Of a stretch of 64,000 nt of DNA, positions 38,318-40,620 are shown piece after piece. How positions within the stretch are numbered: position 1 is the stretch's first letter; every line of letters starts with the position of its first letter. This stretch comes from Desulfoferula mesophila (GTDB taxonomy: Bacteria > Desulfobacterota > Desulfarculia > Desulfarculales > Desulfarculaceae). The stretch is taken from assembly GCF_037076455.1 (NCBI RefSeq), contig NZ_AP028679.1, forward strand, positions 511,501 to 575,500, given 5' to 3'. The translations under genes and the position numbers were made by a program. Below the pieces are notes generated by a model. It saw only the letters and a program-made list of their open reading frames with translations, was not told the DNA's origin and did not search any database.

Positions 38318-38848
38318 ATGGTCAAAACCTTCCTGGCTTTCCTTTTGTTGTTACCTCTAATGGTGTCATGCGCGGACAGAGCGCCTGTTGACGGTCATAC
38401 GGTCTCCAAGGTCGATCTGCAGCGATACAGCGGCAAATGGTACGAGATCGCTTCTCTGCCGAATTCTTTTCAAAAAGACTGCTTTTGCACCTCGGCCGAG
38501 TACTCTTTGGAAGATGGTTATGTCAAAGTAGTCAATCGCTGCCGCAGAGGATATGTCCATGGTCAAGAGGACGAAGCGGTCGGTAAGGCTTGGCCGGTGA
38601 AGGGAAGCAACAACTCACGCTTGGAGGTAAGTTTTTTTTGGCCTTTTAAGGGAGATTATTGGGTCATTGGTTTAGATGAGGATTACCAGTGGGCCATAGT
38701 CGGTCACCCGGATAAGAAATATCTTTGGATCCTTGCGCGCAAGCCTCATATCTCTCCGGCTTTATATAAAGAGCTGATAGAAAAAGTAAAGGACATGGGG
38801 TACCAAACGGAAAATTTAAATAAAACGGTTCAGGCCTGTGGGGAATAA
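38318..38848 (+). CDS. blc: Lipocalin-family lipoprotein (Blc-like)
   Basis: The 176-residue protein has a lipoprotein signal (LLPLMVSC, lipidated Cys18) and the lipocalin motifs: VDLQRYSGKWYEIASLPNSFQK (GxW block, read in parts), DEAVGKAWP, and the YWVIGLDEDYQWAIVGHPDKKYLWILARKP block typical of bacterial Blc, ending with a helix. Blc-type lipocalins bind lysophospholipids or fatty acids in the outer membrane. It lies between terminator copies C and D, so it may have come in with a small insertion. Confidence 0.92.
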   Translation: MVKTFLAFLLLLPLMVSCADRAPVDGHTVSKVDLQRYSGKWYEIASLPNSFQKDCFCTSAEYSLEDGYVKVVNRCRRGYVHGQEDEAVGKAWPVKGSNNSRLEVSFFWPFKGDYWVIGLDEDYQWAIVGHPDKKYLWILARKPHISPALYKELIEKVKDMGYQTENLNKTVQACGE

Positions 38849-39166
38849 TATTTTATATTCACTTCATTTGAACGGGGCCATAATTGCCAAGTCGCTTGCA
38901 TTGACTGGTTACGCTGCCACCATTTGATCCGCCGGGGCGTGTACCGGTTAAAGTGGCCAGGCGGCCCAGGACTGCGGAGAGAGACTGAAAATCGCGGGGC
39001 ACAGCCATTGGGCTGGGCCCCGTTTTGTTTTAGTGAAGCGGCTGCAAGCAAAACGGGCTTTTCTCAGGGCAGTGCGGGGCGAGGAAATTTAATGGTCGTA
39101 AATAGGTTTGGGCAATGTACAACGTTTATAATAATTAAATAAACCTATGGGAAGGAGAGAGTAAAC
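38849..39166 (+). other. Gap with terminator copy D and a TATAAT box
   Basis: The gap holds the fourth copy of the tRNA-terminator hairpin: CGGGGCACAGCC (38995-39006), loop ATTG, GGCTGGGCCCCG (39011-39022), TTTTGTTTT. No recognisable tRNA sequence precedes this copy. A perfect TATAAT (39127-39132) precedes the MerB-like gene without a good -35 box. Its ribosome site AAGGAG is near 39153. Confidence 0.75.
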
Positions 39167-39865
39167 ATGCCCACGCCGCAACAGCTGGAATTGGCCCACA
39201 ATTTTATCCTGCGCCATTTGATGGGGAAAGGATATGCGCCCTTTTACACCGAGGTGGCCGCCCAATTGGGAGTGAGCATGGAGGAGGGGCGTCAGCTTGT
39301 CCACGAACTCATCAAGGCCGGGGTGCCGGGTTTTCTGTTCCCCGAGACCGACCACATCGTAGCCATGCCCCCTTTCAGCAGCCTGCCCACCCACAACCGC
39401 ATAAGCATCGAAGGCAAGCCGGGATGGTACGCCCAGTGAGGCTTCGAAGCGCTGGCGGTCTGCTGGCTATATCCCGGAAAAAAAGTCCAGATCGACACCT
39501 TCTGCCTGGATTGCGGTGAGCCGATCCATCTGGAGATGAAAGACGGCAAGATACTGAATTGCGATCCCGCCGAGGGGATAGTGGGTTACACCTGCCTGCC
39601 GTTCAAACAGTGGTTCGACAACATGTCCTACGCCTGAAGCACCATGAACCTCTTCCGGTCGGAAGAGCACGCCAAGAACTGGAAGGGCTACAAGGACAAC
39701 ACCGAGGCTGGCATCGTCCCGGTGGAAAACCTGGCCCAGGCCTTTGGCATTAGCCTTTTCACCCGCCGCCTGGACCCTGATTACGTCGCCAAGCTGGGCG
39801 AGTATGTGCAGGAGCTAGTGCAAACGGTCTCGGGCATGGGGCCGTTTTGGCAGATGGGAACCTAG
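39167..39865 (+). CDS. MerB-like (organomercurial lyase family) double-selenocysteine protein
   Basis: The frame is continuous over 232 residues if the TGA codons at 39437 (residue 91) and 39635 (residue 157) are read as selenocysteine. The N-terminal 80 residues form a winged-helix-like domain, as in MerB. Then WYAQ-U91-GFEAL aligns with MerB YAW-C96-ALDTL, and U157 lies 15 residues before the conserved W of EDW/KNW, exactly as MerB Cys159 does; MerB Asp99 corresponds to Glu94. Downstream homology resumes after each TGA (FCLDCGEPIHLEM; the AFGIS block near the end), which a decaying gene would not need. Each TGA has a SECIS-like hairpin. Family members cut carbon-mercury bonds; selenolates bind mercury more tightly than thiolates, but the true substrate is unknown. 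Confidence 0.85.
39451..39467 (+). promoter_or_regulatory. SECIS-like hairpin 1 (for Sec91)
   Basis: Six base pairs (two of them G-U), GCTGGC with GCTGGC, close a GGTCT loop. The loop begins 17 nt after the TGA, close to the 18 nt of Escherichia coli fdhF, whose SECIS has the same GGUCU apical loop. Confidence 0.75.
39650..39667 (+). promoter_or_regulatory. SECIS-like hairpin 2 (for Sec157)
   Basis: A perfect 7-bp stem, CTCTTCC with GGAAGAG, closes a GGTC loop that begins 19 nt after the second TGA. Confidence 0.8.
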
Positions 39866-39942: not shown

Positions 39943-39978
39943 AAAGGGCCTGCCGCAACTCATGCGGCAGGCCCTTTT
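39943..39978. terminator. Bidirectional terminator
   Basis: A perfect 15-bp stem, AAAGGGCCTGCCGCA with TGCGGCAGGCCCTTT, loop ACTCA, T-run on the plus side and A-run (T-run on the minus strand) on the other. It serves the MerB-like gene (+) and the Mla/Pqi operon (-). Confidence 0.95.
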
Positions 39979-40002: not shown

Positions 40003-40605
40003 CTACGGCAGGGTTTCCTGCAGGGAGGTCGCAATGCGGCGGCTCAGGTCGGCCAGGGCCTCGCTGTGGGCGGTTACCAGATCCTTGGGCGAGGAGCCGG
40101 GCACGTCGATGATGATCCGGCAGCCCTGGAACAAAAGCAGCTTGTGGTTGTCGCCGCCCAGGACCGACCAGCGGGCTGTCAGCCCGAACTTCCCGCCCGG
40201 CGCGCCGTCCAGCCGGGTCACCTGCACTATGAGCTGGTAGTTGGATTGCTTGAACTCGTTCCATTTGAAGAAGGTGTAACCCTTTTTCCCCAAAAGCTCG
40301 TTCAGGTTGTCCTGCAAGGTCAAGATGACGGCTTTATCGACCGGCTCCGCCCAGCGGTTGAATTCCAGCAGGCGCAACTCCTCCGGACTGACCCGTTCCA
40401 CCATCTGGGGACGATTGACGTAGGCCGGGACGGTAACCGGGCCGATGCTGATCATCTTGCCGCCAAGGTCCGCCTTGTATTGGCTGGTGGCGTCCTTGGG
40501 GGCAATCGGGTTGAGCATGTAGAACTTGCTCGGGGGGCTGGAGGCGCAGCCTGCGAGGATCAACACGGAGAACAAGGCTAGGGCCCCGATGGTTTTTTTG
40601 TTCAT
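40003..40605 (-). CDS. pqiC: PqiC-family lipoprotein of lipid transport
   Basis: The 200-residue lipoprotein has a signal with lipobox LILAGC and then SSPPSKFYMLNP, the usual start of the DUF330/PqiC family, followed by ISIGPVTVPAYVNRPQMV. It is an outer-membrane auxiliary subunit of MCE-type lipid transporters. Start at 40605 (ATG), four codons inside the longest frame, with GGAG upstream. It is the last gene of the mlaE-mlaF-mlaD-pqiC operon and ends at a strong terminator. Confidence 0.9.
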   Translation of the reverse strand: MNKKTIGALALFSVLILAGCASSPPSKFYMLNPIAPKDATSQYKADLGGKMISIGPVTVPAYVNRPQMVERVSPEELRLLEFNRWAEPVDKAVILTLQDNLNELLGKKGYTFFKWNEFKQSNYQLIVQVTRLDGAPGGKFGLTARWSVLGGDNHKLLLFQGCRIIIDVPGSSPKDLVTAHSEALADLSRRIATSLQETLP

Positions 40606-40620
40606 GGCCGTCTCCACGGT

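Follow-up and report, generated by a model that had tools for sequence, protein, structure and literature searches.

Positions 39167..39865 (+) of the window, the 64,000 nucleotide stretch of Desulfoferula mesophila DNA analyzed here, contain a coding sequence of the MerB superfamily that yields a 232 amino acid protein when TGA is read as selenocysteine (Sec), the TAG stop codon being included in these coordinates. The frame opens with an ATG at 39167, is preceded by a Shine-Dalgarno-like AAGGAG (39152..39157, +), passes through in-frame TGA codons at residues 91 and 157 and ends with the TAG at 39865; the coordinates, frame and residue numbers given in a preliminary description of this DNA were exact. 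The gene is present in a single copy in the genome, which consists of one 4.48 Mb contig. Upstream lies a lipocalin gene (38318-38848, +), and downstream a convergent gene encodes an ABC-transport auxiliary lipoprotein (40003-40617, -). Between the two-Sec gene and this convergent neighbor, a perfect inverted repeat of 11 bp with TTTT after it (39946..39978, no strand assigned) resembles a terminator; a promoter and terminator scan listed nothing for the two-Sec gene, omitting this repeat because its T run is short.

The gene stands alone in the window, outside any mer-type operon and surrounded by genes for lipocalin, Mla-type and DUF1254 proteins, and its neighbors vary among lineages. In several Syntrophaceae it is followed by genes encoding a CCG-domain protein, a C_GCAxxG_C_C redox protein and an FAD-linked oxidase, varying subsets of which are found at L049, L050, L051, L055, L063, L081 and L090. 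Beyond this arrangement in some Syntrophaceae, a search for a conserved operon partner identified none common to most loci.

Conserved TGA codons, hairpins and selenocysteine machinery

A search of 395 sampled genomes of the same phylum identified homologues in about two dozen other genomes, mostly with 40-54% protein identity, and nearly all of these are open through exactly two in-frame TGAs. As the homologous frame is kept in this way by so many other genomes, the two TGAs of the window gene are not a product of chance. A scan of named genomes, using patterns drawn from between the TGA sites and including neither of them, confirmed 157 loci, and 80 were retained. Codon statistics were calculated from 74 intact aligned genes, the window gene and 73 named loci. 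Codon 157 (39635..39637, +) is TGA in all 74. At codon 91 (39437..39439, +), 73 genes have TGA and a single gene, L127 from Nitrospinae, has TGC; across the family the two positions lie 65, 66 or 68 codons apart. Damaged or cut copies occur at a few loci (L041, L059, L071, L075 and L116). The contig names of carriers include Desulfobacterota groups, Dehalococcoidia, Poribacteria, Nitrospinae, Lambdaproteobacteria, Abyssobacteria, Acidimicrobiia and Spirochaetes; since these genomes are metagenome bins, isolated carriers in odd phyla may be binning errors. The two-Sec gene is conserved in dozens of relatives across several phyla, a spread of the two-Sec form that the preliminary description, made from the window sequence, could not know.

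Each UGA is shortly followed by a hairpin resembling a bacterial SECIS element, GCUGGC-GGUCU-GCUGGC for the first (39451..39467, +) and CUCUUCC-GGUC-GGAAGAG for the second (39650..39667, +), with the first paired base 14-15 nt past the UGA in both. The GGUC(U) loop is of the same type as that of the E. coli fdhF SECIS. Hairpins with a GGUC loop (at least 5 pairs, +12 to +34) follow only six of the 1749 TGAs on both strands of the window, and both TGAs of this gene are among the six. The second loop is GGTC in 70 of 70 genes and the first is (G/A)GT(C/T) in 69 of 69. Across the 74-gene alignment, synonymous codons are frozen precisely at codons 95-98 and 163-166, the latter reading TTC (74/74), CGG (73/73), TCG (74/74) and GAA (70/74). 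Mean excess codon identity is 0.55 at positions 94-101 and 0.63 at positions 161-168, compared with 0.07 (sd 0.13) elsewhere (Mann-Whitney p 2e-4 and 0.014, respectively). Pair 15/32 of the second hairpin alternates between C-G and T-A; covariation is weak because the stems hardly vary. Single-sequence folding z-scores against shuffled sequences are unremarkable (0.98 and -0.34 for the first and second hairpins), so that folding energy alone is no evidence for these structures and the case for them is made by loop, position and codon conservation.

The genome encodes the machinery for Sec insertion, including a tRNA-Sec (71.8 bits, gathering threshold 47; ARAGORN anticodon TCA), SelB (393 bits, cut-off 242) and SelA (612 bits, cut-off 268). 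SelA is over its cut-off in all 24 carriers of the phylum and in eight of nine carriers from other phyla, the ninth having a SelA fragment at a contig edge. Bacterial selenoproteins are recognized by a hairpin immediately 3′ of the UGA whose apical loop contains G, seen here at both UGAs; by an in-frame UGA kept across species opposite Cys in homologues, also the case here; and by selA, selB and tRNA-Sec in the genome, all three of which are present. The preliminary description had proposed Sec at both positions and named orthologue comparison and the Sec machinery as checks; both bear it out, with TGA, rarely TGC, kept at the two positions in orthologues and Cys at both in remoter homologues. 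Taken from these comparisons, codons 91 and 157 are almost certainly both read as Sec. Genome-wide recoding of TGA was rejected, as TGA terminates 13 of the window's 45 long mechanical ORFs, and is also disfavored by the confinement of the family TGAs to two fixed columns. A pseudogene or sequencing error, to which two in-frame TGAs and the few damaged copies elsewhere (L041, L071 and L116) could point, is refuted by the conservation of TGAs and hairpins, the identical TGA pair and frozen hairpins recurring in more than 70 species-level genomes, and its probability is close to nil.

Relationship to MerB and SaoL

MerB is the enzyme that degrades methylmercury; two of its thiolates grip the organomercurial while Asp99 helps to deliver the proton to carbon. 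The essential MerB residues are Cys96, Asp99 and Cys159, and Cys117 is buried (PMC8261052). The only Pfam match of the window protein is MerB (PF03243), at 74.7 bits against a cut-off of 27 (E=8.1e-21). A profile built from 57 family members matches MerB2 (5c17) at 7.4e-14, and its matches to canonical MerB range from 3e-5 to 2e-4. The structure predicted with Cys substituted for Sec has a mean pLDDT of 96 and a pTM of 0.90, and its Foldseek matches at E < 0.001 are all MerB. The best solved structural match is Hg-bound MerB2 (5c17; Z 17.2, 3.6 Å over 191 residues), well above the next rows, which are winged-helix proteins. Both the Pfam gathering cut-off and the fold thus place the protein in the MerB superfamily. 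Its scores fall below the NCBIfam cut-offs for canonical MerB (42.2 against 193 for NF009710 and 36 against 200 for NF033555).

Alignment with MerB places Sec91 opposite Cys96, Glu94 (39446..39448, +) at the position of Asp99, Cys113 opposite Cys117 and Sec157 opposite Cys159; the wild-type MerB alignment may slip by one residue beside Cys160, and the MerB2 and C160S rows settle the register. The MerB-like reading of the preliminary description, with its pairing of both Sec residues and Glu94, is thereby upheld by domain, fold and alignment. Among the 57 family sequences the invariant residues include Q90, F93, E94, C113, C116, Sec157, M160, F163, S165, E166 and R201, and Sec91 is kept throughout with the exception of one Cys. 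Cys113 and the additional Cys116 lie in a CLDCG motif (39503..39517, +). The protein resembles MerB (PF03243; 1s6l, 3f0o, 3f2f and 5c17) in its winged-helix N-terminus and MerB domain, and shares both metal-binding positions, the acidic position and the Cys117 equivalent. It differs in having Sec in place of both canonical Cys96 and Cys159, an invariant Glu, the putative proton donor, in place of Asp99 (a position that is Ser in MerB2), an extra CxxC and only about 20% identity; its carriers, moreover, mostly lack MerA.

Among the 119 prokaryotic selenoprotein families tabulated in a 2026 review, SaoL (NF040728, motif CU, one Sec) is the single MerB-like entry; several others have two Sec residues, and none of those is MerB-like (PMC13188914). 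The preliminary description knew of no MerB-family selenoprotein with two Sec residues, and none is listed; that a MerB-like protein with one Sec had already been recorded lay beyond what it could know. SaoL, of the SAO system and known here from the review table and an NCBIfam model, is likewise a MerB-superfamily selenoprotein, but the window protein scores 43.7 against the NF040728 cut-off of 140, carries two Sec residues in QU and AU/SU contexts rather than one in CU, and is encoded by a gene that stands alone beside lipocalin, Mla-type and DUF1254 genes. No model in NCBIfam 20.0 names a two-Sec MerB-like family, neither PMC2398784 nor PMC5029168 mentions MerB in its main text, and a literature search with partial coverage of subscription papers found no two-Sec MerB, leaving room for an earlier description. 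The gene therefore belongs to a real two-Sec branch of the known MerB superfamily that seems to have gone unlisted; going by these sources, no MerB relative carrying Sec at the two metal-binding positions would have been reported earlier.

Proposed function and alternatives

The residue correspondence and predicted fold suggest that this protein is probably a diselenolate organometal lyase acting by MerB-like protonolysis. SelA, SelB and tRNA-Sec would decode each UGA, aided by the hairpin just 3′ of it. The selenolates of Sec91 and Sec157 would then grip the metal of an organometal, most probably methylmercury or another organomercurial, filling the role of the MerB thiolates while being deprotonated at neutral pH and binding soft metals more strongly. 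Glu94, which occupies the Asp99 position, would donate a proton, breaking the carbon-metal bond; the hydrocarbon would be released and the metal ion would stay on the two seleniums, from which this tightly held product would eventually have to exit. Methylmercury leads as the candidate natural substrate.

The genome also encodes HgcA, the corrinoid protein of mercury methylation, over its cut-off (421 bits; 4022835-4023812, outside the window). Across the phylum sample hgcA is over its cut-off in 113 of 395 genomes, comprising 17 of 24 carriers of the two-Sec gene and 96 of 371 non-carriers (Fisher p ~1e-5, in counts that ignore lineage). Within the genus, hgcA is found in all five sampled members and the two-Sec gene in two of the five, and three of the six carriers in family f9 have hgcA. 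The association is a lead and not a proof. MerA is over its cut-off in two of the 24 carriers but not in the D. mesophila genome; as most carriers lack it, the canonical route of Hg(II) removal is missing.

The weak points of the lyase reading are this missing MerA and the release of product from two selenolates, which should be slow; the exchange of Asp99 for Glu and the lack of a mer-type operon also stand against it. In an unlikely alternative, the protein would scavenge or carry a soft metal, whether Hg(II), Cd, Cu or an organometal, binding or storing it without cleaving a carbon-metal bond. Two selenolates are expected to hold Hg(II) very tightly, as a scavenger would, and the absence of MerA from most carriers, the extra conserved CxxC and the loss of Asp99 would all suit such a role; however, an invariant Glu94 with the spacing of a proton donor and a retained MerB catalytic domain would be needless for storage.

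A redox enzyme built on the MerB fold, with a diselenide between Sec91 and Sec157 that serves thiol or selenol oxidoreduction or the handling of selenium or sulfur compounds, is rather improbable. Uncharacterized selenoproteins are mostly thought to be redox enzymes (PMC13188914), which lends this reading some general support, as do the CCG-domain, C_GCAxxG_C_C and FAD-linked oxidase genes that adjoin some Syntrophaceae loci. Against it, the fold is not thioredoxin-like, the Sec residues form no UxxC or CxxU motif, and redox neighbors are missing from the window and from most lineages. It is more improbable again that the enzyme cleaves an organoarsenic, organotin or organolead compound, or a metabolite of a corrinoid enzyme, instead of an organomercurial. 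The substrate range of MerB-like variants, the 99Ser form among them, may extend to further organic metal compounds (PMC8261052), and the active site is altered here in having Glu where MerB has Asp and Sec where it has Cys, but hgcA is over-represented among carriers, again in counts that ignore lineage.

Returning to the diselenolate lyase, the analysis suggests a previously unlisted selenium-based enzyme for organometal cleavage in anaerobes. Since many carriers are anaerobes with hgcA, the family is a concrete and testable candidate for demethylation without a mer operon. Standard gene callers stop at codon 91, and the gene has therefore probably been missed in surveys of merB and methylmercury degradation. 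A broader proposal, that diselenolate organomercurial lyases form a widespread family with which anaerobes, many of them with hgcA, degrade methylmercury without a mer operon, is tentative and somewhat doubtful; if true, these lyases would be an unrecognized genetic basis of demethylation in anoxic habitats.

Cysteine-containing relatives

MerB-like homologues with Cys at both Sec positions are found in the same phylum (L043-L047). These proteins, of about 300 amino acids, have Glu at the position of Glu94, and differ from the two-Sec family in lacking Sec and in having a longer C-terminus. A search of 400 genomes from the phylum of one Dehalococcoidia carrier identified, besides two-Sec and Cys/Cys members, a distinct one-Sec subfamily in Chloroflexota (L134, L135, L137, L138, L139, L140, L142, L144, L145, L146, L148, L150 and L152). 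This subfamily has TGA at site 2 only, followed by the same TCTTCCGGTCGGAAG hairpin (CUCUUCC-GGUC-GGAAGAG type), and thus resembles the two-Sec family in its second Sec and hairpin type; it differs at site 1, where it has Cys and, as in canonical MerB, the Asp of a CxxD motif. No NCBIfam model was over its cut-off for the members scanned.

In the tree, L127 and L133, which have TGC at site 1, fall within a single group of Sec/Sec members (100/98), and the Cys/Sec subfamily forms a separate group (98/91). The simplest, though unproven, reading is that the older state of both subfamilies had Sec with its hairpin at site 2, and that Sec at site 1 was added, with later reversions to Cys. The Cys/Cys, Cys/Sec and Sec/Sec proteins make up a natural series on one fold that would allow a direct test of the contribution of selenium. 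L101 (Lambdaproteobacteria) and L127 (Nitrospinae) are sisters, and the latter, with TGC at site 1, is a natural Cys/Sec form for comparison.
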